Shown in pieces: positions 3,028 through 18,595 of a stretch of DNA of 19,912 nucleotides. The notes beneath the pieces are model-generated. The model saw only the letters and a list, made by a program, of their open reading frames with translations. It had not been told where the DNA came from and did no database searches. Position numbers and translations under genes: made by a program. This DNA comes from Kiritimatiellia bacterium (GTDB lineage Bacteria > Verrucomicrobiota > Kiritimatiellia > RFP12 > UBA1067): NCBI GenBank assembly GCA_017965685.1, contig JAGCPM010000238.1, positions 1 through 19,912 on the forward strand, in the 5' to 3' direction. Within the stretch, counting starts at the first letter, position 1; every line of letters starts with the position of its first letter.

Positions 3028-4200
3028 TTATTGCCTGAAGGAAGATGGACTCGACCCGAACGCCGCCGTGAATGACGAGCTGAAATACTGGAGCGACGAA
3101 AAGCCGGAGGCCTTTGCAATGCTCTTGAGCGGCATCGACGTCGTCTGCACGAGCCGCTTCGCCTCGGTAAGCCTCGTTTTGGATATCTCCTTTTGGACCG
3201 AAGTGCCGAGCTTCTGGCGGAACGCCTTGTCCACGAGCGTGTGGGACTTGCCCACATGCGTATAGACATCTGCGGCCGTTATGTTCTTCGTAATGTTGGC
3301 TCTTATGAAGACGAGGGCGTCAGACAGCCATGGCGGGGAGAGCGGGTAGATGCGCGTAGAGCCGCGCTCGATAAGTTTCAGCGGCTTGACGCGGACAGGC
3401 GGCGGCACGACGCCAGGTTTGTCGAACATCTTCTGTAGCGATTCGGCCGCCGCATAGCCTATTCCGACGGGGTTCTGGTCTATGGACGATATGGGCGGAT
3501 CCGTGAACTGGCAAACGAGTTCGTCGTCGTCGACACCGAGAATCGCCACGTCCTCCGGTACGTGGATTCCGTTTGCGCGGCATATTTCGCTAACCTGGTA
3601 TGCGCGCATGTCGTGTGCGCAGAAGATGGCGACCGGCTTCGGCAGTCCGCGGAGCCATTTAAGCAGCTGCCTGGCGTCGGAAGGCATCCCGAAGTGCTCG
3701 TGCATCACCACGGAGTCTTCGAAGTCCTTCAGCGCGATCCTGGGGGTGGAATACAGGCTGCATCTGAAGTGGTTGAGCTCCAGGCTGCGGACAAAGCCGT
3801 TGCGGCGTCCGTCCGAATAGCTGCGCCCGTTGTAGCCGCAGAACGCGAAGTTGGTGAAGTGGTGCTCTATGAAGTGTCGCGCGGCCATCTGCCCTACGAC
3901 GAGCGCGTTCTGGTCGACGGCGGCGAATCCCGGAACGGATTTCTCGAAGAACACGTCAACCACGGGCTTCCCGATGGATGAGAGAGTCTTGGTTATTCCG
4001 TCATTCATGGCGCGGGCGATGAAGCCGTCGTACATGTTTCTGCGGATGTCCTGGCGAAGTTCCGAGAACTCTATGAACTTCAGCGACCAGTCGTTCCTCT
4101 CGCGCGCAAAACGCACTATTCCCTCGCACAGTTTGCGCCCATATCCCCTTTGTCGCTCTACGAGGATTCCGATTTTCTTCATTGCAGTAGTGTCGTTCAT
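3028..4200 (-). CDS. XylR-like AraC-family transcriptional regulator with sugar-binding domain
   Basis: This 390-residue regulator starts MNDTTAMKKIGILVERQRGYGRKLCEGIV. That is the typical opening of the XylR group, in which a LacI-like periplasmic-binding-protein domain (about residues 7-275) is fused to a C-terminal AraC/XylS double helix-turn-helix domain (about 288-390). The first part contains AIFCAHDMRAYQVSEICRA and VAILGVDDDELVCQ, standard for LacI/XylR sugar-binding domains. The second contains the AraC signature region IAKASGFSSLQYFSSSFTAAFG. Such proteins bind a sugar and activate adjacent catabolic genes. It is divergent from the sugar operon, so its ligand is probably a substrate or intermediate of that operon. 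The start is uncertain: ATG at 4200 has a TATAAT only six bases upstream, while a second in-frame ATG lies at 4182 (residue 7) just before the conserved KKIGIL. Confidence 0.92.
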   Translation of the reverse strand: MNDTTAMKKIGILVERQRGYGRKLCEGIVRFARERNDWSLKFIEFSELRQDIRRNMYDGFIARAMNDGITKTLSSIGKPVVDVFFEKSVPGFAAVDQNALVVGQMAARHFIEHHFTNFAFCGYNGRSYSDGRRNGFVRSLELNHFRCSLYSTPRIALKDFEDSVVMHEHFGMPSDARQLLKWLRGLPKPVAIFCAHDMRAYQVSEICRANGIHVPEDVAILGVDDDELVCQFTDPPISSIDQNPVGIGYAAAESLQKMFDKPGVVPPPVRVKPLKLIERGSTRIYPLSPPWLSDALVFIRANITKNITAADVYTHVGKSHTLVDKAFRQKLGTSVQKEISKTRLTEAKRLVQTTSMPLKSIAKASGFSSLQYFSSSFTAAFGSSPSSFRQ

Positions 4201-4206
4201 GCGTGT

Positions 4207-4212
4207 ATTATA
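4207..4212 (-). promoter_or_regulatory. Candidate -10 box of the regulator gene
   Basis: Reading on the minus strand, a perfect TATAAT lies six bases before the ATG at 4200. A start site at the usual distance would fall at about 4200, giving an essentially leaderless transcript or favouring the internal ATG at 4182. No good -35 box is found 16-18 bp further upstream; a TTGCAA sits 22 bp away, which is too far. Activator-dependent or TATA-only behaviour is possible. Confidence 0.4.
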
Positions 4213-4234: not shown

Positions 4235-4272
4235 TTGCAAAAAACAATATTATTATTGCAATGTTTACAATT
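4235..4272 (+). promoter_or_regulatory. Putative AraC/XylR-type activator site (two 21-bp-spaced direct half-sites)
   Basis: TTGCAA occurs at 4235-4240 and again at 4256-4261, exactly 21 bp start to start. This equals the spacing of the araI1/I2 half-sites bound by AraC in E. coli. Taking 17-bp half-sites, the second (4256-4272) overlaps the -35 box by two bases, as expected for a class II activator. The same arrangement with closely matching sequence recurs at 18580-18617. Binding by the divergently encoded XylR-like regulator is inferred from location and pattern. Confidence 0.65.
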
Positions 4273-4300
4273 GAAATCCAGCAATGACATTTGTTAGAAT
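4271..4300 (+). promoter_or_regulatory. Sigma-70-type promoter of the sugar operon
   Basis: TTGAAA (-35, 4271-4276) is followed after an 18-bp spacer by TAGAAT (-10, 4295-4300). A TG at 4292-4293 forms an extended -10. Transcription should start near 4307, giving a leader of about 32 bases before the ATG at 4339. The promoter sits directly downstream of the direct repeats at 4235-4272. Confidence 0.65.
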
Positions 4301-4338
4301 ATAAGACAAAGACCAGAGGTGCGAAAATACTTTGAAAA

Positions 4339-5334
4339 ATGAAATGCAGGAGTGTGACATTTGCCGGCAATGTGATCGTTGACAGCGTGAAGATGCTTCC
4401 GTCGTGGCCGGAACGCGGGATGCTGGTCAACGTTTCATCTGTCAAGAGGTCCGTTGGCGGCTGCGTCTCAAATACCGGCATCGACCTGAAGAGGCTTGAT
4501 CCGTCGATGGAAGTTCGGGCGATCGCGAAGATTGGCGGCGACGAACCGGGCGCGTTCGCGGTCGGGACGCTTTCGCAAGCCGGCATCGACACGTCCGGCG
4601 TCGTCGCGGTTGAGGGCGCGGCAACATCGGCGGTCGACTGTCTCACACTGGAGAAGACCGGAGAGAGGACATTCCTCTGTCTGAAGGGCGCAGGCGCGCT
4701 TCTTTCTCCGGACGACTTCAACGTCGACTCTCTTGACTGCGACATCTTCCACCTGGGATATCTCCTGCTCCTCGACGGCATGGATGCCCCGGACGGCGAG
4801 TACGGAACGAAAGCCGCCTGCCTTCTCGCCGCCGTGCAGGCGAAGGGAATCAGAACCTCCATTGACATCGTCTCCGAACAGTCGGACCGTTTCGCGCGGA
4901 TTGTCCGTCCCGCGCTCAAGTACTGCGACTACTGCGTCGTGAACGAAATAGAGGCGTCGCGCGCGACGGGTGCGGGAAAGGATGACATGCGCGGACTTTG
5001 CGAGGGTCTCGTCGCCCTCGGCGTCAGGCGATGTGCAGTCGTGCACCGTCCCGAGGGATCTGCCGCGCTTGACCGTAACGGCGGTTTCGCGACCCTTGGA
5101 TCTCTGGAACTACCGGACGGCTGGATCGTCGGTTCGACCGGCGCGGGCGACGCATTCTGCTCGGGGATGCTCTATTCGTTTCTTCACGGGATGCCCCCGG
5201 AGGATGGCATGCGACTTGCGTCATGCGCGGCGGCGTTCAATCTTTCCGTGCCCGGATCGGTGGATGGCGCCAGATCGCTTGCAGAGACGTTCGAACTCGA
5301 AAAGGAATTCAAGAGGAGGAAAGTATGCTGGTAA
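4339..5334 (+). CDS. PfkB-family carbohydrate kinase
   Basis: This 331-residue ribokinase/PfkB-family protein phosphorylates a sugar or sugar phosphate with ATP. The N-terminal part shows VTFAGNVIVDSV and then SVGGCVSNTGIDLKRL, the family's glycine-rich substrate-binding region. The C-terminal signature GSTGAGDAFCSG includes the catalytic base D271 and the anion hole. The start is the first codon after an in-frame stop at 4333-4335, and the Shine-Dalgarno sequence is weak (an AGAGGT lies about 18 bases upstream). The 3' end overlaps the aldolase start by 10 bp, which ties the two enzymes together. A PfkB kinase followed by a class II aldolase fits a route making a ketose 1-phosphate or 1,6-bisphosphate that is then cleaved. 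The exact substrate is not determinable here. It is the first gene after the regulated promoter. Confidence 0.9.
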   Translation: MKCRSVTFAGNVIVDSVKMLPSWPERGMLVNVSSVKRSVGGCVSNTGIDLKRLDPSMEVRAIAKIGGDEPGAFAVGTLSQAGIDTSGVVAVEGAATSAVDCLTLEKTGERTFLCLKGAGALLSPDDFNVDSLDCDIFHLGYLLLLDGMDAPDGEYGTKAACLLAAVQAKGIRTSIDIVSEQSDRFARIVRPALKYCDYCVVNEIEASRATGAGKDDMRGLCEGLVALGVRRCAVVHRPEGSAALDRNGGFATLGSLELPDGWIVGSTGAGDAFCSGMLYSFLHGMPPEDGMRLASCAAAFNLSVPGSVDGARSLAETFELEKEFKRRKVCW

Positions 5335-6200
5335 ACATGAAAGGGATGCTCGTCGATGCGGCCAGGGGCGGCTATGCGGTCGGCGGATTCAACTTTGCGT
5401 CGCTCGAGTCGGGAATGGGCGCGGTCAGGGCCTCGGAGGAACTCGGGATACCGTTTGTTCTGGAGCACGCTCCGGCACACGAGGAGTATTGCCCTTTTGA
5501 TGTAGCGGCACCGATCATGGTGCAGCTTGCGAAGGCGGCGAAGACGCCCGTCGCAGCGCATCTGGACCACGGCGACTCGGTCGAACTCTGCCTAAAGGCG
5601 CTTAAGTACGGTTTTTCGTCCGTCATGTTCGACGGCTCCGCGCTTTCCTACGAAGAGAATATAGAGAAGACGGCCTTTGTCTGCAAGGTTGCTCACGAGT
5701 TCGGGGCGACCATCGAGGCCGAACTGGGCGCGATGCCGCACAACCTCAAGGGTGAACTGCGGGAATACACTCCGGAGGATTTCTACACGAGACCGGAAGA
5801 TGCCGCAAGGTTCGTCGCAGAGACTGGCGTGGACGCGCTGGCCATCTCCTTTGGCACGGTGCATGGCGTCTACAAGACTACGCCCAAACTTTCGTTCAAG
5901 GTGATCGACGGGGTAAGGAAGGCGACCGGCGACCTGCCTCTCGTGATGCACGGAGGATCGGGGCTTTCCGATGCCGACTACCGCGAGGCCATCTCGCGCG
6001 GCATACGGAAAATCAACTACTACACCTACGGTGCGATAGCCTCCGGCGAGGCGGTTCGCGCGTATGTCGCCGCTCACGAAGGCAAGCTAATGTTCCATGA
6101 CATTGCCGTGTGCGCGACAAATGCCGTATGCGACGACGTAAAGCGCGTGATGAAGCTCTTCAAACAGGAGACTGCGCGTCAGATACGGAAGACGGTCTGA
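5325..6200 (+). CDS. Class II ketose-bisphosphate aldolase (GatY/KbaY/Fba family)
   Basis: This Zn2+-dependent aldolase reversibly cleaves a ketose (bis)phosphate to DHAP and an aldehyde. Of its 291 residues, those around HLDHG place the catalytic Asp at D81 and a zinc ligand at H82. Further zinc ligands are H180 in GTVHGVY and H209 in VMHGGSG. EAELG and a nearby loop complete the family pattern. Overall length and motif placement match GatY/KbaY-type tagatose-bisphosphate aldolases rather than long class IIa fructose-bisphosphate aldolases. The start was set at ATG 5325 because a GAGGAGGA Shine-Dalgarno lies at 5313-5320 and the family N-terminus begins here; the frame is open further upstream but that part is shadow sequence. 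It overlaps the kinase stop by 10 bp, so coupled translation is likely. Confidence 0.9.
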   Translation: MLVNMKGMLVDAARGGYAVGGFNFASLESGMGAVRASEELGIPFVLEHAPAHEEYCPFDVAAPIMVQLAKAAKTPVAAHLDHGDSVELCLKALKYGFSSVMFDGSALSYEENIEKTAFVCKVAHEFGATIEAELGAMPHNLKGELREYTPEDFYTRPEDAARFVAETGVDALAISFGTVHGVYKTTPKLSFKVIDGVRKATGDLPLVMHGGSGLSDADYREAISRGIRKINYYTYGAIASGEAVRAYVAAHEGKLMFHDIAVCATNAVCDDVKRVMKLFKQETARQIRKTV

Positions 6201-6251
6201 TTTCAGGCGGCGTCAAACGATTGCAGACAACAAAAAGGAAAGGATGAAAAA

Positions 6252-6683
6252 ATGCTCAAAGGAATAAACCCGGTTCTGTCATCGGACCTGCTGAAGATAC
6301 TCTGGGACATGGGGCATGGCGACGAACTCGTCATCACCGATGCCCACTATCCCGCACACTCCAAATCTCCCGATCGCGTCGTCGACGCGGCAGGCGTGGA
6401 TGTGGCGCCGCTTCTTAAGGGAATCGCCCCGCTGTTCGAACTCGACCCGGAGGTTCCGCCCGCCATGATCCAGGACACCCAAAAGGATCCCGCCGATCCG
6501 CAGGTCGAAAAGGACTTTCGCGAGGCTCTCGGCTATGGCGGGGAGATCGTGCGCATGGGCAGGTTCGACTTCTACGACCGCGCGACAAAGGCATACGCCG
6601 TCGTCCGCACGGGAGAACTCAGAAAGTACGGCTGCATCATAATCACGAAGGGCGTGACTAACAACGGAAAGGGGTGGAGGTGA
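6252..6683 (+). CDS. fucU: FucU/RbsD-family sugar mutarotase (L-fucose mutarotase-like)
   Basis: FucU-type enzymes interconvert alpha and beta anomers of a free sugar, delivering the form used by the next isomerase. The 143-residue protein begins MLKGINPVLSSDLLKILWDMGHGDELVITDAHYPA. H22 in the GHGDE motif corresponds to the catalytic histidine of characterised FucU. The C-terminus carries YAVVRTGELRKYGCIIITKGV, also typical of FucU rather than RbsD. An AAAGGA site at 6237-6242 precedes the ATG. The stop overlaps the following ATG (TGATG). The resemblance points to a 6-deoxyhexose such as L-fucose, but the family also handles other sugars, so the substrate is inference. It lies in the operon with two isomerase families, which fits an anomer-supply role. 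Confidence 0.88.
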   Translation: MLKGINPVLSSDLLKILWDMGHGDELVITDAHYPAHSKSPDRVVDAAGVDVAPLLKGIAPLFELDPEVPPAMIQDTQKDPADPQVEKDFREALGYGGEIVRMGRFDFYDRATKAYAVVRTGELRKYGCIIITKGVTNNGKGWR

Positions 6684-7279
6684 TGAAGACGGTAAAGGAC
6701 AAGTATCTGCTCGTCGGGGCGGACACGGCGGGATTCCCTATCAAGGAGGCTGTCGTCGCGCACCTGAAGGCGCAGGGCTGGACGATAGAGGACATCGGCG
6801 TCACGGACTACGAGCGCGACAAGGACGACCTGAACCTCATGTTCCATCGCGTGGGACTCCGGGTAGGTGCGAAGATCGCTTCGGGCGAGTACGAGCGCGC
6901 GATGGTTTTTTGCGGAACCGGCATGGGGATACACATCGCGGCGTCGAAGTGCCCGCACGTCCACGCCGGCGTCGTGGAGTCGCCGCAAGCCGCCGAGCGC
7001 GCGGCGAAGGGCAACGGCGTGAACGTCCTCGCGATGGGCGCATTCTTCGTCACAACTCACATGGCCTGCGTCATAGCGGACGCATACCTCAACTCCTGGC
7101 TTGGCAAGGGATATGAGTGGTGGCACAACTTCTACGAATTCCACAAGCTCGCCATCGACGAGATGGAGGCTTTCGACTACGACGAGTATATGAAGACTGG
7201 CAAGCTCCCCCATCTCGGCGACTATCCGCTTTCGCCGGCGGGTAACGTTCCCGGAAAGGCCGTCGGCAAGAAGGACTGA
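6683..7279 (+). CDS. RpiB/LacA/LacB-family sugar isomerase, divergent active site
   Basis: This protein of about 198 residues has the RpiB/LacAB fold pattern: YLLVGADTAGF at the N-terminus, FCGTGMGIHIAASK in the middle with the catalytic cysteine C77, and GVNVLAMGAFF after it. RpiB interconverts ribose 5-phosphate and ribulose 5-phosphate; LacAB isomerises galactose 6-phosphate. Against remembered E. coli RpiB, phosphate-binding H10 aligns with T15 and ring-opening H99 aligns with G110, while the neighbouring D and the Cys are kept. It also has about 50 extra C-terminal residues. A different or non-phosphorylated substrate is therefore plausible. I chose ATG 6683 because it overlaps the fucU stop; GTG 6674 and GTG 6680 are in-frame alternatives. 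It is three bases from the HAD gene. Confidence 0.85.
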   Translation: MKTVKDKYLLVGADTAGFPIKEAVVAHLKAQGWTIEDIGVTDYERDKDDLNLMFHRVGLRVGAKIASGEYERAMVFCGTGMGIHIAASKCPHVHAGVVESPQAAERAAKGNGVNVLAMGAFFVTTHMACVIADAYLNSWLGKGYEWWHNFYEFHKLAIDEMEAFDYDEYMKTGKLPHLGDYPLSPAGNVPGKAVGKKD

Positions 7280-7282
7280 ACG

Positions 7283-7930
7283 GTGGGACGCAGGGGCTAC
7301 ATCTTCGACATGGACGGTACGCTCGTCGACAACGTGCAGTACCACGTCAAGGCATGGAAGGCGTTTTCGCGAAAGTACGGAAACGAACTTTCCGAGGACA
7401 AGATAGTGGGCTGGATGGGCATGACGAACCGCATCTACCAGGAGCGAATACTAGGCCGTTCCGTTGGCGACGAGGAGTCGCTCCGCATGAGCGAGGAGAA
7501 GGAGTCCAAGTACCGGGAGCTCTTTTCCGCGCACATGCGCCTTCCCGACGGACTCCGCGCGCTTCTGGATCGCGTCCGCGATGCGGGAATCGTCTGCGCG
7601 GTGGCGACGGGCGCGCCGGCTTCCAACGTCAACTTCATAATGGACGGGCTCTCGCTTCGTGACGACTTCAAGGCCGTGGTGGACGAGACCAAGTACACGA
7701 AGTGCAAGCCCGACCCCGAATGCTTCCTGACGGCGGCGAAGATGCTTGGATGCGATCCGTCTGACTGCGTCGTGTTCGAGGACGCCGTTCCGGGCGTCAT
7801 GGCCGGGAAGGCCGCCGGCATGAAGGTTGTCTGCGTGACGTTCACGCGTCCGCGCGAAGTCCTTGTCGACGCCGGAGCCGACATGGTAGTCGATTCATAT
7901 CTTGAACTCTTCGAAAAGGAGCTGCCGTGA
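7283..7930 (+). CDS. HAD-superfamily sugar phosphatase / beta-phosphoglucomutase-like
   Basis: This 215-residue HAD hydrolase starts with GTG, three bases after the previous stop. Motif I is FDMDGT (nucleophile D9, D11), motif III contains K142 in the KCKPDPE segment, and motif IV is FEDAVPG with E166 and D167. A helical cap lies between motif I and residue about 90. Relatives include beta-phosphoglucomutases and small sugar-phosphate phosphatases; the two are hard to separate without cap-domain comparison. In this operon it could dephosphorylate a stray or toxic sugar phosphate, or interconvert phosphate positions. Its stop sits 14 bases before the next kinase start. Confidence 0.85.
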   Translation: MGRRGYIFDMDGTLVDNVQYHVKAWKAFSRKYGNELSEDKIVGWMGMTNRIYQERILGRSVGDEESLRMSEEKESKYRELFSAHMRLPDGLRALLDRVRDAGIVCAVATGAPASNVNFIMDGLSLRDDFKAVVDETKYTKCKPDPECFLTAAKMLGCDPSDCVVFEDAVPGVMAGKAAGMKVVCVTFTRPREVLVDAGADMVVDSYLELFEKELP

Positions 7931-7944
7931 AGGGAGCCGTTGAA

Positions 7945-8772
7945 ATGGACGTAGTGGCGTTTGGCGAAATACTGTGGGATGTCATCGACGGCGTTCCACA
8001 TCTTGGCGGCGCTCCGTTTAATTTCGCCGCGCATGCCGCGCTCCTGGAACTCAAGACCGCCATCGTCTCGGCCGTCGGGTGCGACGAATTGGGGACGAAA
8101 GCCATCGCCGCCGCAGAGCGCTTCGGGGTGGGCGTGTCCTTGGTGGAAAGGCATCCGTCGCTTCCGACGGGCATCGTGAACGTGACGCTCGCAGACGGCA
8201 TTCCGTCGTACGAGATAGTGAGGCCCGTCGCGTGGGACGAGATTTCATGCGGTTCAGCGGCGGATGCCGCGCCCGTCCCGCCGAAGGTGTTCTATTTCGG
8301 CACGCTGGCGCAGCGTTCGCCGGTCTCCGCTGCGACGCTACGGCGGCTGCTCCGTGCATTCGACACGTCCTTGACCTTCTTCGACGTGAATCTTCGGCAG
8401 GACTGGTGGAGCGAGGCACTCGTATTGAAATGCCTCGAATCGGTCGATGTCTTCAAGGTGAACGATGAGGAGATGAAGACCCTTGGATTTTCCCCGGAGG
8501 CGCTTTTCTCCCGATTCCCTCGCCTCAAGACTGTCGTCGAGACTCGCGGCGCGGAGGGATGCCGCGTGGCGTCGCGGGGGGAATCCGCATTCGACAGCCC
8601 TGCGATTTGCGACGGACCGGTCGTCGATACGGTCGGCGCGGGCGATTCTTTCTCCGCCGCATTCATAGCCGCCATTCTGCGCGGTGAAAGCCTCAAGGCC
8701 GCGGCCGAGGCAGGCAACCGCCTTGCGGGGAAGGTTGCGGCACGCGCTGGCGCCATACCCGAAGACATTTGA
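7945..8772 (+). CDS. PfkB-family fructokinase-like kinase
   Basis: This 275-residue kinase reads MDVVAFGEILWDVIDG followed by LGGAPFNFAAHAALL, the opening typical of bacterial fructokinases of the PfkB family. The C-terminal signature VVDTVGAGDSFSAAF holds catalytic D234. It is clearly different from the kinase at 4339, so the operon has two PfkB enzymes for two phosphorylation steps or substrates. ATG 7945 is chosen because an AAGGGAG site lies eight bases upstream. An in-frame GTG at 7927 would overlap the HAD stop and add only six residues. Lying directly before a psicose/tagatose 3-epimerase, it may phosphorylate the fructose or other ketose that the epimerase makes. That pairing is inference from neighbourhood. 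Confidence 0.88.
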   Translation: MDVVAFGEILWDVIDGVPHLGGAPFNFAAHAALLELKTAIVSAVGCDELGTKAIAAAERFGVGVSLVERHPSLPTGIVNVTLADGIPSYEIVRPVAWDEISCGSAADAAPVPPKVFYFGTLAQRSPVSAATLRRLLRAFDTSLTFFDVNLRQDWWSEALVLKCLESVDVFKVNDEEMKTLGFSPEALFSRFPRLKTVVETRGAEGCRVASRGESAFDSPAICDGPVVDTVGAGDSFSAAFIAAILRGESLKAAAEAGNRLAGKVAARAGAIPEDI

Positions 8773-8795
8773 CAAAAACAGAAAGGAAGAACACA

Positions 8796-9662
8796 ATGAA
8801 ATACGGTATATACTACGCCTACTGGGAAGACAAGTGGGAGGCCGACTACTTCAAGTACATCGAGAAGGTGGCGAAGCTCGGCTTCGACTTCCTCGAAATC
8901 GCCTGCACGCCCATAAACGGCTATTCGCGTCAGACGCTGAAGGACCTTCGCCAGGCGGCTAAGGACAACGGAATCTTCCTCACGGCGGGGCACGGGCCCA
9001 GCGCAGACCAGAACCTCTCCTCGCCGGACGCTGCAGTCCGCAAGAACGCCAAGAAGTTTTTCACAAAGCTCCTGAAGAACCTCGAAATCCTCGACATCCA
9101 CACCATCGGCGGCGGCATCTACAGCTACTGGCCCGTGGACTACTCCAAGCCCATCGACAAGAAGGGCGACTGGGCGCGTTCCGTCAAGGGCGTGCGCGAG
9201 GTCGGGAAGATCGCGGCCGACTGTGGCGTTGACTACTGCCTCGAGGTTCTGAACCGCTTCGAGGGATATCTCCTGAACACTGCGGCAGAGGGCGTCAAGT
9301 TCGTCAAGGAAGTGGACGTCCCCTCCGTGAAGGTGATGCTCGACACGTTCCACATGAACATCGAGGAGGATTCCATCGGAGGCGCGATCCGCTCCACGAA
9401 GGGACTTCTCGGCCACTTCCACACCGGCGAGTGCAACCGCCGCGTCCCGGGAAGGGGCAGGACGCCGTGGTTCGAGATCGCGACGGCGCTGAAGGAAATC
9501 GGCTACAAGGGCAACGTAGCGATGGAGCCGTTCGTCCGCATGGGCGGTAAGGTGGGCGAGGACATCAAGATATGGCGCGAGCTCGAGCCGGGCATCACCG
9601 AGGCGAAGATGGACGCGGACGCGAAGAGCGCCCTTGAGTTCGAACGCGCGGTGCTGGGCTGA
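8796..9662 (+). CDS. D-psicose (allulose)/D-tagatose 3-epimerase
   Basis: This 288-residue TIM-barrel enzyme inverts C3 of free ketohexoses (psicose-fructose, tagatose-sorbose) using a divalent metal. The sequence strongly resembles Agrobacterium D-psicose 3-epimerase from memory, starting MKYGIYYAYWEDKW and including DIHTIGGGIYSYWPVDY and VMLDTFHMNIEED. The four metal ligands fall at exactly the residue numbers of that enzyme: E150, D183, H209 and E244. The HFHTGECNRRVPG loop is also kept. ATG 8796 has AAAGGAAG upstream at the right distance; an in-frame TTG further upstream is not needed. It sits between a fructokinase-like gene and a sodium/sugar symporter. Members vary in preference between psicose, tagatose and 6-deoxyketoses, so the natural substrate is open. 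Confidence 0.93.
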   Translation: MKYGIYYAYWEDKWEADYFKYIEKVAKLGFDFLEIACTPINGYSRQTLKDLRQAAKDNGIFLTAGHGPSADQNLSSPDAAVRKNAKKFFTKLLKNLEILDIHTIGGGIYSYWPVDYSKPIDKKGDWARSVKGVREVGKIAADCGVDYCLEVLNRFEGYLLNTAAEGVKFVKEVDVPSVKVMLDTFHMNIEEDSIGGAIRSTKGLLGHFHTGECNRRVPGRGRTPWFEIATALKEIGYKGNVAMEPFVRMGGKVGEDIKIWRELEPGITEAKMDADAKSALEFERAVLG

Positions 9663-9681
9663 TTCGGACGGGAGGCACTTC

Positions 9682-11454
9682 ATGCAGCTGATCGACTGGT
9701 TGATGGTGTTCGGCTATTTCGGCGTCCTGGCCGTCGTCGTGACGGGCACGCTGCGGAAGCGGAAGATCAGGTCCGGCGAAGACCTCTTCCTCGGGGGGCG
9801 TTCCGTCGGCTGGCTCGCCATAGGCGCGTCGCTCTTCGCGGCGAACATCGGCTCGGAGCATCTTGTCGGACTCGCCGGCGCGGGGGCTTCGGCAGGTCTC
9901 AGCCAGGCGCACTGGGAGTTCAACTCGTGGATCATCGTGGGCATGGCCTGGATATTCCTCCCGTTCTACTACAAGAGCGGGGTGTCCACCATGCCGGAAT
10001 TCATCGGGCGACGCTTCGGCGAGCGGGCGCGGTGGCTTCTGACCCTCGTCTCGCTCGCGGCGTACGTCCTCACCAAGATCGCGGTGACGGTGTTCGCCGG
10101 CGCCGTGTTCTTCCAGACGATGATGCCGGAGCTCCAGCTTGTCGTAGGAGACGTCACGATCACGTCGTTCTGGCTCGGGGCGGTCCTTACCGTCGTCCTC
10201 GCCGGAATCTACTCTTCGGTAGGAGGTCTCTCCGCAGTCGTTTACACCGATGTCGTCCAGACTGTCGTCATTCTCGTCGGTACGCTGTCGGTCACGGGGT
10301 TCTCGCTCTACTACCTCGGCCATTCCGGCGTGGTCCTGCCTGACGGGCAGGCCGCGCAGTCGATGTCGGACGGATGGCAGGTGCTGAAGCAGACGATTGT
10401 GTCGAGCGGAGCCGCCGAGCGGTTTTCGCTGTTCCATCCGCTCACCCATCCGACGTTCCCGTGGCTGGGCGTCATGGTCGCGTCGCTCGTCAGCGGCTGC
10501 TGGTACTGGTGCACGGACCAGTTCATCGTGCAGAGGACGCTGGCGGCGAAGGACCTTACGAACGCCCGCAGGGGCGTCCTTTTCGGATCGCTCCTCAGGT
10601 TTACCCCGGTCTTCCTCTTCATAGTTCCGGGGATGCTCGGCTTTGCGCTTTGGCAGAACCACGTCAGCATCGGAGGCGTGGAGTTCGGGCGTCAGATGAC
10701 GATGCTCGTGGACGGCGTGCGCGCAATTGACGGCGACAAGGTGTTCCCGACTCTCGTGCAGAGCGTGCTGCCTGTCGGGTTTCGCGGCATTGTCGTAGCG
10801 GGAATGGTCGCGGCGCTTATGAGTTCGATGGCGTCGCTCTTCAATTCGGTTTCGACGCTCTTCACGATGGACGTGTTCCTTAAGCTGCGTCCGGATGCAG
10901 GGCAGAAGACCGTCGTTCTGGTGGGCCGCTGCACCACCGTGGTGATGACGTGCCTTGGCCTTCTCTGGCTTCCGGTCGTGAAGCTCATCACCAGCGGCGG
11001 GCTATACGAGTATCTCCAGAACGTGCAGTCGTTCCTCGCGCCCCCGATTGTCGCCGTGTTCCTTGCGGGGCTTTTCTGGAAGCGTGCGAACCTGGCCGGG
11101 TCTATCACGGGGCTTGCCGGCGGATTCGCCCTGGGGATCGGCAAGCTGGTTCTCAAGGCTGCCTGCTCGAGCGCGGACGGATGGATTGGCGCGGCGGCGC
11201 GGTTCAACGACTACTACTTCTCCGGCGTCCTTTTCGTGCTGTCCGCGATCTTTGTGGCGCTGGCCTCTCTGGCGACGCAGGTGCCAGATGCATCACGGCT
11301 TGGCGGGCTCAACTACTTCTGCCTTGACGAGGCGTTCAAGAAAGAGAACCGCGCCTCGTGGAACTGGGTGGACGTCTGCGCGTCCGCATTCGTGGTGGCA
11401 CTGGTCGTCACGGCTTACATCTACTTCTGCAACTGGCTCGGAGGTGCGGCTTGA
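9682..11454 (+). CDS. Sodium/solute symporter, SSS family (SGLT-like sugar transporter)
   Basis: This 590-residue inner-membrane protein has about 14 predicted hydrophobic segments and imports a solute with Na+. SGLT-type motifs are clear: SGEDLFLGGRSVGW early on, GSEHLVGLAGAG, WYWCTDQFIVQRTLAAKD in the middle, and SSMASLFNSVSTLFTMDVF, the region of the Na2 sodium site. H60 and E79 are 19 residues apart and correspond to the sugar-site positions H83/E102 of human SGLT1 (Q69/E88 in vSGLT), supporting a sugar substrate. ATG 9682 follows a GGGAGG site six bases upstream; an upstream TTG in frame lies inside the epimerase gene. The last bases overlap the TTG start of the glycosidase gene. Galactose or a related hexose is a reasonable but unproven cargo. 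Confidence 0.93.
   Translation: MQLIDWLMVFGYFGVLAVVVTGTLRKRKIRSGEDLFLGGRSVGWLAIGASLFAANIGSEHLVGLAGAGASAGLSQAHWEFNSWIIVGMAWIFLPFYYKSGVSTMPEFIGRRFGERARWLLTLVSLAAYVLTKIAVTVFAGAVFFQTMMPELQLVVGDVTITSFWLGAVLTVVLAGIYSSVGGLSAVVYTDVVQTVVILVGTLSVTGFSLYYLGHSGVVLPDGQAAQSMSDGWQVLKQTIVSSGAAERFSLFHPLTHPTFPWLGVMVASLVSGCWYWCTDQFIVQRTLAAKDLTNARRGVLFGSLLRFTPVFLFIVPGMLGFALWQNHVSIGGVEFGRQMTMLVDGVRAIDGDKVFPTLVQSVLPVGFRGIVVAGMVAALMSSMASLFNSVSTLFTMDVFLKLRPDAGQKTVVLVGRCTTVVMTCLGLLWLPVVKLITSGGLYEYLQNVQSFLAPPIVAVFLAGLFWKRANLAGSITGLAGGFALGIGKLVLKAACSSADGWIGAAARFNDYYFSGVLFVLSAIFVALASLATQVPDASRLGGLNYFCLDEAFKKENRASWNWVDVCASAFVVALVVTAYIYFCNWLGGAA
11440..11445 (+). promoter_or_regulatory. Ribosome binding site fixing a TTG start
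   Basis: GGAGGT lies five bases before TTG 11451. It sits inside the symporter's last codons. This site, together with the signal peptide that begins exactly there, decides the start of the glycosidase gene over upstream in-frame ATG codons. Confidence 0.75.
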
Positions 11455-13553
11455 AACGGCTGCTCCCGCTTTGCTTTTTCTTCGCGGCGTTGTTCGCCTG
11501 TGCGGCCGAGCGAGCCTCATTCCGCGGCTGGGCGATTGCCGTAGACCGCGTCTCGCTCGACTTCTCGCTGGAGAGCGCGGCGGCTCCCGGCGGTAGCGCC
11601 GTTATTGTCGAGGACGGACGTATCGCACTGCCCCCGGGGTGGGTGCCCGCTTCAGGGAAGGCCAAGCTTCCGTCAATGGATGCCGCTTTCTCCCTTATGG
11701 AAGTGCCAGTTGTCAGGAATGGCGAAACGAACGCCGTGGTCTTCCGGCTTTCCGCGGATGGCGTGGAAATCGCGGCACCGGATGGCTCCCGTATCTCCGG
11801 CACGCTACTCTGGGGCGCGGACGCCAGGCGCGTAATCGCTGTCAAGGCGGACGAGCCGTGCGCAGGACCGCACGTTACCTCCGGTCCGTGCGTGCCGAAT
11901 GGAGCTGACGCCGTTTTCGACATTCCATCGGATGCGCTTCTCGCGTTGCGCGGTGCGACGCTGGAGTACGCTCCCAACGCGGAACGCTTTATGTTCGCGG
12001 CGGATGGAACGGTCTCATTCTCGGCCCGGTGCGCGTTTCTTTCCGGTCTCTACGGCATCCGCAGCCATGCGCCTAGGGAGGGCGGCACGTTCGCGACGCC
12101 ACCAGTCGGATGGATGACGTGGTATGCCGTCAAGTTCGCCGCAAACGAGCAGATTATCCTTGAGAACGCCAAGGCATTCAAGGAGAAGTTCGGCGGATAC
12201 ACCGAAGAGAAACCCGTCCTTTGGGTTGACTGGGAATGGGGTCATGGCAAAATGCACAATTCCGGGGAGGAAGGCGAAGATGTGACCGCGCCCCGCGCAT
12301 CGGCGTACCCGCGCGGGATGAAGGTGCTTGCAGATGACCTTTTGTCACTGGGCTTCACGCCCGCGCTGTGGATTTCCGTCGTCAACGATTGCCGTACCAA
12401 CGCTTTCTGGAAGACGCGCCCCGAATGGGCGCTGGGCGAATGGGATGTGTGGTGCGGACCAGTGTGGGGCGATCCGACGGCTCCAGGCTTCTGCGAAGAA
12501 TACGTTCCCGGTCTCTTCGCGCTTTACGAGAGCTGGGGATACAGAGCGTTCAAGTGGGACACGCTCCCGTGGGCGCTCGCCGCCTTCACGCGACTGCGCG
12601 AAAAAATGCACGATCCGTCCGTGATGCCGGAAGAAGCGTATCGCAGGATGGTTGTCGCGGGACGCAAGGCCGCCGGCGAAAAGACTTTCCTGATGAGCTG
12701 TTCCGGCGAGACCGACTCCTGCAATCTTGCAGCCTCCGACCTTTTCGACGCGATGCGCATCGGCGGCGACATCTTCACCTGGGAGAATTTCGTCAAGCAG
12801 GGCGTAGACCGCATCTTGCGCTACCAGCCGCTCCACGGCACGCACATCCTCTCGGACGGCGACAACCTTGTGCTCCGGCCTGAATTTTCCACGCTCGCGC
12901 AGGCGCGGACCCGCGTTTCGATATACGGTCTCTCGGGACTTCCCGTGACAGTCGGCGACACGATTGCATCGCTCGATGCGCCGCGCATCGACATGCTGCG
13001 GTGCATCATGCCGGTCGTACCGGTGATGCCTGCATCGCTGGCGCGAGCTGAGAGCAGGACGGACGGCATTGTGGAATCGATCGCCGAATTCGCACGTCCG
13101 TGGGGGACGTGGGAGGTTCGCGCATTCTCCAACTTTGACACGAACGAAGCACGGTGCGTTTCGTTTTCCGCTCCGGGCCGCGCCGTCTGGGACTTCTGGC
13201 GTGGCGAATTGCTGCGTCCGGACGGCGACGGCGTCTTCACGCTGGAAGTGTTGCCGTGCGATACGCGCGTAGTGCGTCTCACGCCGTTTTCCGTCCAAGG
13301 CGCAACGCTTCTTTCGGTTTCGCGGCACATAACGCAGGGCGGATACGAGCTGGCGTCATTCCGGTCCGATGCGCACGAAGCGTCCGGCGCAGTGAAGTGT
13401 CCTGGCGGCGGGACCGTGAAAGTCTCGCTTCTGCTGCCGGAAGACAGGGGTTCGATAACATCCTCGCATCCCTTCAAACTCGAAGGAGATGTCCTGCGGC
13501 TTGAACTGTCGCCGGCGTCAAGCGAGACAGTCGAATGGCGCGTTGCGTTCTGA
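11451..13553 (+). CDS. Exported glycoside hydrolase, clan GH-D (GH27/GH36-like alpha-galactosidase)
   Basis: This 700-residue protein begins at TTG with a signal peptide, MKRLLPLCFFFAALFACAA. Residues about 25-200 look like a beta-sandwich. GWMTWY at 220-225 opens a TIM barrel, followed by WVDWEWGHG around D260. FKWDT contains D370, in the place of the clan nucleophile. MRIGGDIF contains D440, in the place of the acid/base Asp. C-terminal beta-sandwich regions follow from about residue 500. Clan GH-D enzymes remove terminal alpha-linked galactose and related sugars, so an alpha-galactosidase-like role outside the cytoplasm is likely, but the exact family is not certain (GH27, GH36 or a close relative). 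LFAC before the cleavage region could also be a weak lipobox. The TTG overlaps the symporter stop (TTGA), linking uptake and cleavage. Confidence 0.8.
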   Translation: MKRLLPLCFFFAALFACAAERASFRGWAIAVDRVSLDFSLESAAAPGGSAVIVEDGRIALPPGWVPASGKAKLPSMDAAFSLMEVPVVRNGETNAVVFRLSADGVEIAAPDGSRISGTLLWGADARRVIAVKADEPCAGPHVTSGPCVPNGADAVFDIPSDALLALRGATLEYAPNAERFMFAADGTVSFSARCAFLSGLYGIRSHAPREGGTFATPPVGWMTWYAVKFAANEQIILENAKAFKEKFGGYTEEKPVLWVDWEWGHGKMHNSGEEGEDVTAPRASAYPRGMKVLADDLLSLGFTPALWISVVNDCRTNAFWKTRPEWALGEWDVWCGPVWGDPTAPGFCEEYVPGLFALYESWGYRAFKWDTLPWALAAFTRLREKMHDPSVMPEEAYRRMVVAGRKAAGEKTFLMSCSGETDSCNLAASDLFDAMRIGGDIFTWENFVKQGVDRILRYQPLHGTHILSDGDNLVLRPEFSTLAQARTRVSIYGLSGLPVTVGDTIASLDAPRIDMLRCIMPVVPVMPASLARAESRTDGIVESIAEFARPWGTWEVRAFSNFDTNEARCVSFSAPGRAVWDFWRGELLRPDGDGVFTLEVLPCDTRVVRLTPFSVQGATLLSVSRHITQGGYELASFRSDAHEASGAVKCPGGGTVKVSLLLPEDRGSITSSHPFKLEGDVLRLELSPASSETVEWRVAF

Positions 13554-13573
13554 AAGTAAAGGCATGAACGTCT

Positions 13574-14863
13574 ATGAGCTACGCTGAAGCAAAGAAAGAC
13601 ATCGCCGGTTGCGCCGATCTCAAGTGCGTGATGGAGGCAAGAGGCGGCAGGCTGCTGTTCCTCTCTATGGCGGCGGCCATGGGTGGATTCCTGTTCGGGT
13701 ACGACACGGCGGTAATCAACGGCGGGGAGCAGCAGATACAGTCAGTCTGGAGCCTGTCGTCGTTCATACATGGCCTCGTCATGAGTTCCGCGCTTTGGGG
13801 TACGGTTATTGGGGCGGTCTGCGGCGGAAAGGTATGCGACAGGATAGGGCGCAAGCCTACGCTCTTCTGGGTCGGAGTGCTGTACCTCGTCTCCGCCGTC
13901 TGGAGTGCATTCGCGTTCGGACCGCAGGATCTGATGGCCGCTCGCTTCATAGGTGGTCTTGGCGTTGGGGCGTCTTCGATAGCCGCACCAGTCTATATCG
14001 CGGAAATCGCCCCTCCAGAAAGGCGCGGGCAGCTTGGCGGGCTTTTCCAGTTCAACATCGTTCTAGGCATGGTCGTCTCGCAGTTCGTGAACTGGGGGAT
14101 CGGCTCCGCTGGGCTTGGCGACGCCACATGGCGCTGGATGCTTGGCGCGGAGGCGGTTCCTGCGCTTGCGTTCACGCTCTTGACGCCGTTTCTCGACGAG
14201 AGCCCGAGATGGCTGGAGATGAGAGGATATGAAGTTGGAGACTCCAACTCAACAGGTTTCTTCTCCCGCTCAAACCTGCGTCCCGTATTGCTTGCGTTCT
14301 GCGTCGCGATGTTCAACCAGCTTTCGGGCATCAACGCGATGATGTATTTCGCGAAGCGCGTATTCGAGATGGCGGGCTTCACGCCGCAGGTCGCGCTTGG
14401 CACGGCGGCGGGGATGAGTATCGTCCTGGGGCTTGGCACGTTCGCGGGGCTATTTCTCATCGACCGGCTCGGACGCCGCACGCTCTTGATAATCGGCTCC
14501 ATCGGCTGCATCGTCGCGCACTTCGCCGCAGCCTCGGCGTTCGTGTTCGACCTAGGGCTTGTCGCCGCGATATGCATCTTCCAGTTCATCGTGTTCTTCG
14601 CCGTGGGGCAGGGCGTTGTCATCTGGGTGTTCATTTCGGAAATCTTCCCGCAGAAGTTCCGCGCCCAGGGGCAGAGCTGGGGAAGCTTCACGCACTGGTC
14701 GTTCTGTGCGGCGCTTACGTTCGTCTTCCCGGCGATGGCGGCGTCGTGGGCGCCGGCTTCGATATTCACGTTCTTCGGCGTCTGCCTGTGCGTCCATCTT
14801 CTTTGGGCAATCTTCATTTGTCCTGAAACAAAAGGAAAGAAACTGGAGGAGTTCGAAAAATGA
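13574..14863 (+). CDS. MFS sugar porter (XylE/GLUT-type)
   Basis: This 429-residue membrane transporter has the sugar-porter subfamily signatures in order: FLFGYDTAVINGG in TM1, DRIGRKP after TM2, PVYIAEIAPPERRGQL in the TM4-5 region, DESPRWLE after TM6, NQLSGINAMMYFA in TM7, DRLGRRTLL after TM8, and PETKGKKLEEFE at the C-terminus. It probably imports a monosaccharide with H+. The loop between TM6 and TM7 is only about 26 residues, whereas XylE-type proteins have about 60; this explains its short length. It lies 20 bp after the glycosidase gene. An AAAGG site is 12 bases upstream of the chosen ATG, so initiation may be weak or coupled. The stop overlaps the next start (ATGA). It is the second transporter of the locus. 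Confidence 0.93.
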   Translation: MSYAEAKKDIAGCADLKCVMEARGGRLLFLSMAAAMGGFLFGYDTAVINGGEQQIQSVWSLSSFIHGLVMSSALWGTVIGAVCGGKVCDRIGRKPTLFWVGVLYLVSAVWSAFAFGPQDLMAARFIGGLGVGASSIAAPVYIAEIAPPERRGQLGGLFQFNIVLGMVVSQFVNWGIGSAGLGDATWRWMLGAEAVPALAFTLLTPFLDESPRWLEMRGYEVGDSNSTGFFSRSNLRPVLLAFCVAMFNQLSGINAMMYFAKRVFEMAGFTPQVALGTAAGMSIVLGLGTFAGLFLIDRLGRRTLLIIGSIGCIVAHFAAASAFVFDLGLVAAICIFQFIVFFAVGQGVVIWVFISEIFPQKFRAQGQSWGSFTHWSFCAALTFVFPAMAASWAPASIFTFFGVCLCVHLLWAIFICPETKGKKLEEFEK

Positions 14864-16251
14864 AATTCGCGGTTATGTTTGGAAACAGGGGGTTCTTCCC
14901 CGGTGAACTGATAGCGTCCGCGCGGCGCGACTTTGCTTCCGTCCTGAAGAAAAACGGACATGTGGCTCTGATGATGGAAGGCGCAGGCACTCGCTACGAC
15001 GCCGTGGAGACGCCCGCGGAGGGGCGCAGATTCGCCGCGTTCCTTGCGGCGCACAAGAACGAGGTGGACGGCGTCATAGTCGCGCTGGCAAACTTCGGCG
15101 ACGAAAATGGCGCACTCTACGCGTTGCGCGATGCAGGCGTCCCGATACTCGTGCAGGCATATCCCGACGAAATCGGCAAAATGGACTTCTCGCACCGTCG
15201 CGATGCGGTTTGCGGGAAGATCGCGATGTGCAACGTCCTCCGTCAGGCGGGCGTCAAGTTCTCTCTTACGCGGGACTTTGCCGTCGATCCAAAGAGCAAG
15301 GCGTTTGCAGAGGACCTTCGTCTGTTCGCGGCGACGTGCAGCGTTGTCAATGGGATGCGCCGCCTCAACGTTGCGGCTGTCGGCGCGAGGACTACGGCGT
15401 TCAAGACAGTCCGTTTTGACGAGATCGCCTATCAGCGCAAGGGCGTCGGCATCGAGACACTCGACCTCTCATACGTGTTTTCGCTTATGGAGAAGGCCGA
15501 TGCGACGGTGGTTGCCGAGAGCGTCAAGGCGCTCAAACGCTACGCCGACTTCGGCAAATGGCCGTCCGGGAAAGTGGATGCGTTGGCGCGGCTCGCGATT
15601 GCGCTAGAGAAGATAAGAGACGACCTTTCGATAGACGCCTTCGCGATACGCTGCTGGGACGAGTTCCAGCACCGCTGGGGAATCGCACCCTGCGTCGTGA
15701 TGGCAATGCTTAATTCGCAGGGCATCCCGGCCGCATGCGAGATGGATGTCAACAACGCCGTCGCCATGAAGGCGCTCTCGCTCGTCGCCGACGGCCCGGT
15801 AGGACTCTTCGACGTCAACAACAACTACGGGAAGGCGAAGGACAGGATGATCTTCTTCCACTGTTCGGCGCTTCCAGGGGAGATGCTCAAGGGCAAGGGC
15901 GTGATCGGCGAGCACCTCATGTTCCGCAAGGCGTTTGGCCCGGGAACGGGCGTAGGCATCTTCGGCGTCAGTGTCAGGCCGATGCCGCTTACTGTCGCTA
16001 GCATGAAAACCGAGGACGGCAGTCCGTGGGCGTTCGTCACAACCGGGAAAGTCACGCCGGATAATATAGAGAAGGGGTTTTTCGGAACAGGATTTGTCTT
16101 CCGTCCCGAAAGCGGCGATGCGAACGCCATGCTCAACTACATGGCGCGGAACGGCTACCGTCATCACGTCGCATTCGTCGAAGGTGACTGGTCACGGGCC
16201 GTTGCGGAGGCGTTATCGAACTATCTAGAGTATCCGATAGATGAGATTTAA
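14860..16251 (+). CDS. L-fucose/L-arabinose isomerase-family protein (cytoplasmic aldose-ketose isomerase)
   Basis: This 463-residue protein belongs to the FucI/AraA superfamily, Mn2+-dependent enzymes that convert aldoses to ketoses. The N-terminal half is a Rossmann-like region starting MKFAVMFGNRGFFPGE. The C-terminal half holds likely metal ligands E294 (in ACEMDVNNAVAMK), D318 (in GLFDVNNNY) and H334 (in FFHC). The E-to-D spacing of 24 equals that of E337/D361 in E. coli FucI as I remember it. At 463 residues it is shorter than FucI (about 590), so it is a compact subfamily and the substrate is unclear. A GGAGGAG site lies nine bases before the ATG, which overlaps the MFS stop by four bases; the 3' end overlaps the GH78 gene by 11 bp. 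With fucU in the same operon, a 6-deoxyhexose is a sensible guess. Confidence 0.85.
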   Translation: MKFAVMFGNRGFFPGELIASARRDFASVLKKNGHVALMMEGAGTRYDAVETPAEGRRFAAFLAAHKNEVDGVIVALANFGDENGALYALRDAGVPILVQAYPDEIGKMDFSHRRDAVCGKIAMCNVLRQAGVKFSLTRDFAVDPKSKAFAEDLRLFAATCSVVNGMRRLNVAAVGARTTAFKTVRFDEIAYQRKGVGIETLDLSYVFSLMEKADATVVAESVKALKRYADFGKWPSGKVDALARLAIALEKIRDDLSIDAFAIRCWDEFQHRWGIAPCVVMAMLNSQGIPAACEMDVNNAVAMKALSLVADGPVGLFDVNNNYGKAKDRMIFFHCSALPGEMLKGKGVIGEHLMFRKAFGPGTGVGIFGVSVRPMPLTVASMKTEDGSPWAFVTTGKVTPDNIEKGFFGTGFVFRPESGDANAMLNYMARNGYRHHVAFVEGDWSRAVAEALSNYLEYPIDEI

Positions 16252-18595
16252 GGTTATTGCTTGCGCTGTCTTCGTCGCCGGCGCTCTGACGTCGGCGGCT
16301 GGCGGAGGCAATACGACTTTCTCCGTCGCCGTGCCCGTCTGGCCGCAAGGTCGTGAGCGACGCATGAACGACTTTGTTGAATTCCGCACATTCTTTGACT
16401 CTTCGGAAGGTGCGCGTCCCGTTCTGCGCATTACGGGAGCCTCCGTTTACCGCATCCGGCTGAATGGCGTGTTCGCCGGGTACGGTCCGGCGCGCGCCGC
16501 CCCGGGTTTCTTCCGCGTGGACGAATGGCCGCTTGCGGCAAAGCCTGGGCGCAACGAATTGTCAATAGAGGTCTCCGCCTATAACTGCAACACGTTCTAC
16601 ATACCCGAACACCCGGCGTTCCTCCAGGCGGAGGTTGACTGCGACGGATGCATCCTCGCGGCAACTGGCCGCGGAAGCGACTTCTCGGCCTTTGAGACGA
16701 CGCGCATCACGAAATGCTCGCGCTATAGCTACCAGCGCGCATTCGGCGAGGCGTACCGCCCTTCGCCGAACGGGGAAGGCGAAAAACTCACGCTTGTCGC
16801 GCAGCCGGCTGTCCGTCTCGTGGAGCGCATCGCGGCGTATCCCAAATTCGAGTTCCTGGGCGAGTTCGGGCCTTCGTCCCGGACGCGCGTCAGGATCGAT
16901 TCGTCTGGCGAGTATCCGCCGGCGAGGTTTGTTGACAGCGTCCAGAGTTGGTTCAAGTGCTATGCGCATACGAATCTGGATGTAAACATCTACGACACTC
17001 TCCGCCATACGCGCACCACCCTGGACGACATCAAGGCCGCCGGCGGGCGGATAACCGCCGGGGAAGGCGTCCAGTACGATGTCGGGCGCAACGCATCCGG
17101 CTTCATCGTGCTGGACGTGGAATGTCTCAAAGCGGGGACGCTTTGGGTAGCCTTCGACGAGGTGCTGCAATGTGGCGTCGTCGCGCCCATGCGTTCGCCC
17201 GAAGTGGCCAACGCCGTCTGTTTCGAAATGACGCCGGGCCGCCGCCGTATCGAGACATTTGAACCATATACAATGCGCCATGTCCACGCCTACACGTTCG
17301 ACGGCGAATTCAGCCTTGGCAAGGCGGGCGTCAGGGAATACCGCTCTCCCGCCGCGGACGCCGCCGCTCTCCGGACGTCCGATGGTTCGTTGGACGCCAT
17401 ATTCGCCGCCGCGCGCGAGACGTTCGCGCAGAACGCCGTGGACGTATTCACGGACTGTCCGGGCCGCGAGCGCGCGGGATGGCTCTGCGACAGCTTTTTC
17501 CTGGCGCGCGCATCGGCGCTGCTTACCGGATCGACAGACCTCGAGCGTCTTTTCTTCCAAAACTACATGCTGCCGGAGAAGTACGCCGACATACCGGAAG
17601 GCATGATACCAATGTGCTTCCCGGCGGACATTCGCAACGGTAACTACATACCGAACTGGGCGATGTGGTTCGCCATACAGCTCGGGGAGTACCTCGCCAG
17701 GAGTGGCGACCGCGCCACGGTGGATGCACTGAAGCCGAGGATGCTGGCGCTCGTAGATTTCTTCAGGAGATTCCGAAACTCCGACGGGCTTCTCGAAAAC
17801 CTCGGCGGGTGGACGTTCATCGAGTGGAGCGAGGCGAACAAGCTCGTGAAAGACGTGAACTACCCGACGAATGCGACATGGGCGGAGATGCTGGACGCGG
17901 TGGCAGGAATGTACGCCATGCCCGAACTCGCCGAGGAGGCGGAGCTCGTGCGCGAGACGATACGCCGCCAGTCGTGGACCGGGCGGTGGTTCTGCGACAA
18001 CGCCGTCCGGGAGTCGGACGGAACGATTAAGCCCTCCGGGAAGTGCACCGAGACGTGCCAGTACTACATGTTCGCGTTCGGCGTTGCGACAAGGGAAACG
18101 CATCCCGCCCTCTGGAACACGCTCGTTTCGGACTTCGGACCAAGGCGACGCGAAACTAACGCCTATCCGGAGGTTTTCCCCGCCAATGCGTTCATCGGCA
18201 ACTTTCTCCGCCTGGAGCTTCTATCCCGCGCCGGCCTTTCGCGCCAGGTCGTCGATGAAAGCCGCGGGTATTTCGCCCACATGGCGGAGCAGACGGGCAC
18301 TTTGTGGGAACACGAAGGGACAAGGGCGAGCTGCAACCACGGCTTTGCAAGCTACGTCGCGGTGCTTTATGCACGGAACGTCGCCGGCATCGTGGAGATT
18401 GACGGCTCGGCGAAGACCGTGGCCGTCCGGAATACGGATGTGCCTCTCGACTTCTGCGAGATGGCGCTTCCGGTAGATGGCGGAACGGTGACGTACGGCT
18501 GGCGCAGGGAAGGGGCGGAGCGCGTCGAGACGTTTCGCGCTCCCCTTTGCTGGCGGACGATAACGGCGCAGGGTGATGATTGCAAAAAAAGATAG
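16241..18595 (+). CDS. Exported alpha-L-rhamnosidase-like glycoside hydrolase (GH78)
   Basis: This 784-residue protein starts with a signal peptide, MRFKVIACAVFVAGALTSAAG. An N-terminal beta-sandwich contains YRIRLNGVFAGYGPARAAPGFFRVDE, the usual GH78 lectin-like region. The (alpha/alpha)6 catalytic domain follows, with the signature DCPGRERAGWLCDS. E410 is the likely general acid and E604, in TETCQYY, the likely general base. GGWTFIEW, YPTNATWAEML and CNHGFASY are also family-like. GH78 enzymes remove terminal alpha-L-rhamnose from glycans and glycosides, acting in the periplasm or outside. The ATG overlaps the isomerase stop by 11 bp. No strong Shine-Dalgarno is present, so coupled translation is likely. 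Its 3' end contains the first half-site of the next promoter. Related non-rhamnosidase specificities exist in this family, so the linkage cleaved is not certain. Confidence 0.88.
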   Translation: MRFKVIACAVFVAGALTSAAGGGNTTFSVAVPVWPQGRERRMNDFVEFRTFFDSSEGARPVLRITGASVYRIRLNGVFAGYGPARAAPGFFRVDEWPLAAKPGRNELSIEVSAYNCNTFYIPEHPAFLQAEVDCDGCILAATGRGSDFSAFETTRITKCSRYSYQRAFGEAYRPSPNGEGEKLTLVAQPAVRLVERIAAYPKFEFLGEFGPSSRTRVRIDSSGEYPPARFVDSVQSWFKCYAHTNLDVNIYDTLRHTRTTLDDIKAAGGRITAGEGVQYDVGRNASGFIVLDVECLKAGTLWVAFDEVLQCGVVAPMRSPEVANAVCFEMTPGRRRIETFEPYTMRHVHAYTFDGEFSLGKAGVREYRSPAADAAALRTSDGSLDAIFAAARETFAQNAVDVFTDCPGRERAGWLCDSFFLARASALLTGSTDLERLFFQNYMLPEKYADIPEGMIPMCFPADIRNGNYIPNWAMWFAIQLGEYLARSGDRATVDALKPRMLALVDFFRRFRNSDGLLENLGGWTFIEWSEANKLVKDVNYPTNATWAEMLDAVAGMYAMPELAEEAELVRETIRRQSWTGRWFCDNAVRESDGTIKPSGKCTETCQYYMFAFGVATRETHPALWNTLVSDFGPRRRETNAYPEVFPANAFIGNFLRLELLSRAGLSRQVVDESRGYFAHMAEQTGTLWEHEGTRASCNHGFASYVAVLYARNVAGIVEIDGSAKTVAVRNTDVPLDFCEMALPVDGGTVTYGWRREGAERVETFRAPLCWRTITAQGDDCKKR

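Follow-up and report, generated by a model that had tools for sequence, protein, structure and literature searches.

Organization of the locus

The window, by which we mean the whole stretch of 19,912 nucleotides analysed here, carries a regulator gene on the reverse strand and two units of genes on the forward strand, each of which is preceded by two direct half-sites and a promoter (Table 1). The regulator contains matches to Peripla_BP_3 (E = 5.9e-34, 118 bits, cut-off 26.5) and HTH_18 (E = 3e-16, 59.9 bits, cut-off 33.6), and this order of a sensor followed by a double HTH places the protein in the XylR-type AraC family. The match to the PBP1_XylR model is 19.9 bits, below the cut-off of 27. 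The closest solved relatives are the E. coli XylR structures 4fe4 and 4fe7, which align over nearly the full length (4fe4: E = 4.7e-37, residues 8-389). The regulator is the sole gene of its subfamily at E 1e-60 in its own genome (1.41 Mb in 248 contigs, 65% complete), and 51 of the 114 genomes of the window's family, the own genome included, contain a match at this threshold.

Table 1. Features of the regulator, the two operator-promoter modules and the downstream units in the window
Feature	Position	Strand	Remarks
XylR-type regulator, periplasmic-binding-protein-like sensor and AraC-type double HTH	3028..4200	-	Pfam
Candidate -10 (TATAAT) of the regulator's own promoter	4207..4212	-	Putative; read from the sequence
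Operator 1, distal half-site TTGCAAAAAACAATATT	4235..4251	+	Second box degenerate; relatives-only matrix
Operator 1, proximal half-site TTGCAATGTTTACAATT	4256..4272	+	Shares 2 bp with the -35
Promoter 1, -35-like TTGAAA	4271..4276	+	5/6 consensus
Promoter 1, -10 TAGAAT	4295..4300	+	TGn-extended; 39 bp from proximal half-site start
Unit 1, predicted operon of 12 genes: PfkB kinase, class II aldolase, FucU mutarotase, RpiB-type isomerase, HAD phosphatase, PfkB kinase, D-psicose 3-epimerase, SSF symporter, 731-aa frame without Pfam match, MFS sugar transporter, fucose-isomerase-like protein, rhamnosidase-like protein	4339..18595	+	Gene calls, family matches
Operator 2, first half-site TTGCAAAAAAAGATAGT	18580..18596	+	Overlaps the end of the last unit-1 gene
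Operator 2, second half-site TTGCATCATTTACCATT	18601..18617	+	
Promoter 2, -35-like TTGCGT	18616..18621	+	Weak, 3/6
Promoter 2, -10 TACAAT	18640..18645	+	TGn-extended; 39 bp from second half-site start
Unit 2, isomerase-like protein, apparent signal peptide	18712..19911	+	Cut by the contig end

The candidate -10 of the regulator gene lies 6 nt from the annotated ATG and 22 bp from the distal half-site of operator 1. In this region (4182-4212), either the mRNA would be leaderless or translation would begin at the internal ATG at codon 7. In the alignment, several relatives begin at that internal ATG.

Regarding the downstream genes, the D-psicose 3-epimerase (458 bits, cut-off 300) and the L-fucose mutarotase (146.9 bits, cut-off 141) of unit 1 both exceed their family thresholds, and the family matches of the window genes point to a sugar other than xylose. 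Because an epimerase and a mutarotase occur together with two PfkB kinases and a class II aldolase, unit 1 likely encodes a ketose or deoxyhexose route. The 731-residue frame inside the operon (11358-13553) has no Pfam match; parts of it may resemble GH36-type glycosidases. The unit-2 protein shows no Pfam match at E 0.001 and is weakly like L-arabinose isomerase, with 31.9 bits against NF002795, far below the cut-off of 622. Its signal peptide was read by eye, and this relative of sugar isomerases may be exported.

Geometry of the operators and promoters

The two modules were first described in a sequence-only reading of the same DNA, and most of the reported geometry is reproduced. The half-site starts are 21 bp apart at both sites (4235/4256 and 18580/18601), the -35 and -10 elements are separated by 18 bp at both promoters, and the -10 is extended in each, with TGn directly 5' and ATAA directly 3' of the hexamer. 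Recounting also returned 29 identical positions of the 39 compared between the modules and, within the 18-bp spacers, only five of 18. The reported distance of 15 bp to the -35 is correct if it is counted from the start of the second half-site and incorrect from its end. As far as sequence can show, each module is a promoter-operator with a predicted double site for the regulator.

The half-site itself had to be redefined. Its TTGCA(A/T) core is present as described; however, the element is bipartite and, at about 17 bp, longer than had been claimed, with the form TTGC(A/G)-...-TT-N-N-AA repeated at 21 bp. Its two boxes lie approximately one helical turn apart, which is the expectation for one double-HTH domain. 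In 28 half-sites of 14 relatives, the first four positions are T (26), T (26), G (28) and C (28), followed by A or G at position 5; T occurs 23 and 19 times at positions 10-11, and A 24 and 25 times at positions 14-15. The proximal half-sites of the window agree with this two-box pattern, and both distal half-sites retain TTGCAA with a degenerate second box. What had been taken for the first bases of the -35 within the conserved stretch is instead the second box of the half-site, TTTAC(A/C)A: the two-box proximal half-site reaches the -35, and therefore conservation appeared to extend into it. Since TTGCAA is its own reverse complement, the orientation of the half-sites rests on this second box.

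Specificity of the sites in the window and genome

The similarity of the two operators is not exceptional by itself, as the pair 5124 and 8619, located in coding frames, also matches at 29 of 39 positions; the case rests on structure and conservation for this reason. This second pair, together with the palindromic TTGCAA and its resemblance to a -35 element, could be taken to indicate a chance likeness of two AT-rich promoter regions. Against this stands a matrix derived from the upstream operators of 14 relatives, with the window excluded, which ranks 4235 first (27.9) and 18580 second (14.4) among all window positions. The next scores belong to operator 1 read backwards (14.3), an overlapping position (9.4) and the best unrelated position (6.1), and operator 2 is a weak site on this scale. 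The 21-bp period and the -10 offset of 38 or 39 bp also recur in relatives, as described below, and we consider a chance origin extremely improbable. With an iterated matrix, one of 200 shuffled windows reached the score of site 2 (15.5) and none of 200 reached that of site 1 (30). The first seeds of this matrix included the window half-sites. This mild circularity extends to the relatives-only matrix, since the relatives' sites were not placed in register wholly independently of the window.

In the own genome, which is 65% complete, no third site passed. As far as sequence can show, the prediction of two units holds. The 39-bp pattern with at most three mismatches likewise occurs only at the two window sites, from which it was derived. 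The core pair TTGCAW-N15-TTGCAW with one mismatch gave 20 matches on both strands compared with eight for a reversed control. Those outside the window sites score no higher than 5.1, have no TAnnnT at 37-40 bp and sit in open frames of at least 128 codons, although this coding test is weak, with an antisense frame flagged over each window site too. The core by itself was set aside; of its matches, only the two window sites survive the matrix and -10 filter.

Conservation among relatives of the regulator

We compared the flanks of 95 regulators, the window included: 33 of at least 43% identity, 50 of 34-42% and 12 below 34%. Named loci in the first group are labelled Kiritimatiellae, Verrucomicrobia or 'bacterium'; they are mostly metagenome-assembled genomes, many of them from ruminant gut, and the window's genome is assigned to the group through relatives of the same genus. 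A motif-free period scan upstream of the regulator covered 31 relatives at or above 43% identity, leaving out the window and one row whose flank was too short, and gave a mean best match of 10.52 of 17 at offset 21, compared with 7.87-8.48 at the other 17 offsets of 15-32. There is no peak at 21 in the 34-42% group (8.04; highest 8.38 at 22) or below 34% (8.25; highest 9.00 at 23).

With the iterated matrix, 15 of the 33 upstream regions, including that of the window, score at least 22.2, and the next scores 4.0. When either side of the gene was searched within 350 bp, a half-site pair scoring at least 16 at spacing 21 was found for 22 of the 33 regulators, window included, compared with 0-6 of 33 at other spacings from 16 to 31. 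The site lies 5' of the regulator gene in 15 of these cases and 3' in seven. At seven loci (L121, L124, L125, L126, L127, L128 and L129), the operator is located just 3' of the regulator gene, rather than between divergent genes, and the promoter reads away from it. Of six full-length relatives scored in addition, all at or above 43% identity, two carry a site, one with a -10 at 38 bp and one without TAnnnT at 38 or 39 bp; matching operators therefore stand beside 24 of 39 full-length regulators at this level, a count that contains near-copy rows (G131:C114, G131:C264 and G130:C500) and hence non-independent entries. Two additional rows of 41% and a partial row of 43% have no site. Sites of at least 16 were also found for eight of the 50 regulators of 34-42%. 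Since no such site occurs in the flanks of 15 of the 39, 42 of the 50 and all 12 below 34%, the operator is not a general rule for XylR-like proteins.

The distribution of sites follows the phylogeny of the regulator. In an 83-row tree, built by a quick method and with the later-added rows outside it, the site label needs ten changes compared with 24.6 for shuffled labels, and none of 500 shuffles was as low. All 11 regulators in the supported clade holding the window (SH-aLRT 96) carry a site, three of these rows being near-copies of each other.

These operators beside the relatives' own genes support the earlier suggestion that the divergent XylR-like gene encodes the likely regulator. The sites could be real and yet serve another AraC-type protein, given that the genome is 65% complete and has three other XylR-like matches. 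We judge this very improbable: only one gene of the subfamily is present in the own genome at E 1e-60, and sites accompany many subfamily genes among the relatives, compared with none of the 12 distant regulators sampled.

Operator-to-promoter spacing and the predicted mode of regulation

A TAnnnT hexamer occurs 38 bp (18 sites) or 39 bp (eight sites) after the start of the second half-site at 26 of 30 sites, and at any other offset from 26 to 59 at no more than four of 30; the -10 hexamer is not part of the half-site matrix. Such a fixed distance between activator and promoter is characteristic of class II activation. Two of the four exceptions (G127 and G090) have TAnnnT at that place on the opposite strand, and the strong site G069:C240 (33.3) has none at 38 or 39 bp. 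The -35 is mostly poor: the best hexamer 16-18 bp from the -10 in 14 relatives matches TTGACA at five of six positions in one row and at two to four in the other 13. From the fixed spacing and the poor -35, we argue for activation by contact with RNA polymerase.

The same regulator and operators would also be compatible with repression, in which the bound protein would cover part of the -35 and keep RNA polymerase out until released by the sugar. The proximal half-site shares 2 bp with the -35, and promoter 1, with its near-consensus -35 (five of six) and extended -10, could work unassisted. However, a rigid spacing between operator and -10 is expected for activation and needless for repression, the -35 is mostly poor in the 14 relatives, and PMC12125979 describes E. 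coli XylR and Vibrio XylRA, which share this architecture, as activators. Repression of the two units is therefore improbable in our view.

Instead, we consider it highly probable that a dimeric, sugar-responsive XylR-type protein acts as a class II activator of the two units through the 21-bp direct repeats. In the proposed mechanism, a dimer of the divergently encoded regulator would bind the two half-sites of about 17 bp, and sugar binding would set its two AraC-type DNA-binding domains side by side. In sequence geometry, the two direct half-sites adjoining the -35 are arranged as would be expected for binding by an XylR-type regulator. With the proximal domain in contact with the -35 region, the regulator would bring in RNA polymerase at promoters whose -10 is good and whose -35 is, in most relatives, poor. 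One signal, presumably a sugar of this pathway, would turn on both the catabolic unit of 12 genes at 4339 and, at 18712, the isomerase-like gene. The regulator probably also represses its own gene, whose candidate -10 is close to the distal half-site.

Comparison with known systems

E. coli XylR has the same architecture over its full length, and we could read a 21-bp direct repeat of GTAAT in the E. coli xylA-xylF region, where it is unannotated. The half-site sequence differs, however, and the genes clustered with the window operators encode kinases, an aldolase, a mutarotase and an epimerase. The E. coli araBAD promoter resembles the modules in geometry, with half-sites of 17 bp in direct repeat at 21 bp, a first box of T(A/T)GC and the proximal half-site at the -35. 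The two half-sites there are labelled I1 and I2 (araI1/I2), and the parallel drawn by the sequence-only reading stands, with the -10 at 37 bp from the second half-site start in araBAD compared with 39 bp in the window and 38-39 bp in the relatives. The sensor domain of AraC is of another type than that of the XylR-type regulator. Among XylR-type proteins outside E. coli, PMC12125979 describes the activator XylRA of a Vibrio xylan locus, with an AT-rich direct-repeat motif at several promoters that was found by cross-genome comparison and checked by EMSA. Unlike the present system, it belongs to Gammaproteobacteria, and xylose is shown as the effector (PMC12125979).

Among the open-access papers searched, none mentions both XylR and Kiritimatiellae. 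The predicted system is well supported and ordinary in kind, a conventional on-switch in a little-studied group, and represents a new XylR-type regulon with a motif and a spacing rule. For a group that was encountered here almost exclusively as metagenome-assembled genomes, it supplies a regulator and operator that can be tested together and a motif of practical use.

Predicted regulons in the relatives

Two points had escaped the sequence-only reading: the rule extends beyond the own genome, and other branches have the operator on the 3' side of the regulator gene. The controlled genes differ as well, because most of the other loci compared have nothing but the regulator in common with the window. 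Three relatives have 64% identity, and in two of them the divergent gene is the same MFS transporter (75-76%) that in the window sits inside unit 1; the third contig ends 80 bp upstream. One of these two also has the isomerase-like gene (66%) after the transporter.

Eight extra sites were found in the genomes of five relatives, four in G010 and one each in G026, G084, G101 and G130. In all eight, a -10-like hexamer stands at 38 or 39 bp and a long frame follows immediately, its first start codon 41-100 bp after the operator start. In G130, that codon (41 bp) precedes the -10, and translation must therefore start further downstream. The eight frames encode a GH2 beta-galactosidase, two DUF6528 proteins, a beta-helix protein, an F5/8-type-C protein, a BspA-type repeat protein and two proteins without Pfam match; most have an apparent signal peptide, read by eye. 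The -10 also stands at 38 or 39 bp at three other sites, G026:C77:651, G084:C12:1406 and G129:C117:4249.

We lean towards the view that XylR-type regulators radiated in Kiritimatiellae under a single rigid promoter rule, the 21-bp repeat with a -10 38-39 bp downstream. The half-site letters (TTGCAA, TTGCGG, TTGCGT) would have changed in the course of this radiation, as would the controlled genes and even the side of the regulator gene that bears the operator. If so, glycan-use regulons, including secreted enzymes and surface proteins, could be read from incomplete genomes of uncultured members. The fixed spacing offers a simple filter for regulon members in fragmentary genomes, and the differing half-sites of the relatives offer natural material for studying changes in AraC-type recognition.

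Two family-wide patterns were also tried and set aside. A pattern with the full second box and at most two mismatches gave 12 sites in six of 114 genomes and none in the controls; it misses both window sites because their distal half-sites are degenerate. A looser pattern gave 79 matches in 40 of 114 genomes compared with 16 in the control and is too noisy alone. Two of the six genomes matched by the first pattern, G060 and G061, lack a relative at or above 43% identity. In G060, the contigs G060:C231 and G060:C326 (L238 and L239) together carry six TTGYAYTTTTNGCAA-like pairs with 21-bp spacing, which have no TAnnnT at 34-45 bp on the strand read; they possibly represent another regulon of the same general kind. 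L239 also carries SSF and isomerase-like genes.
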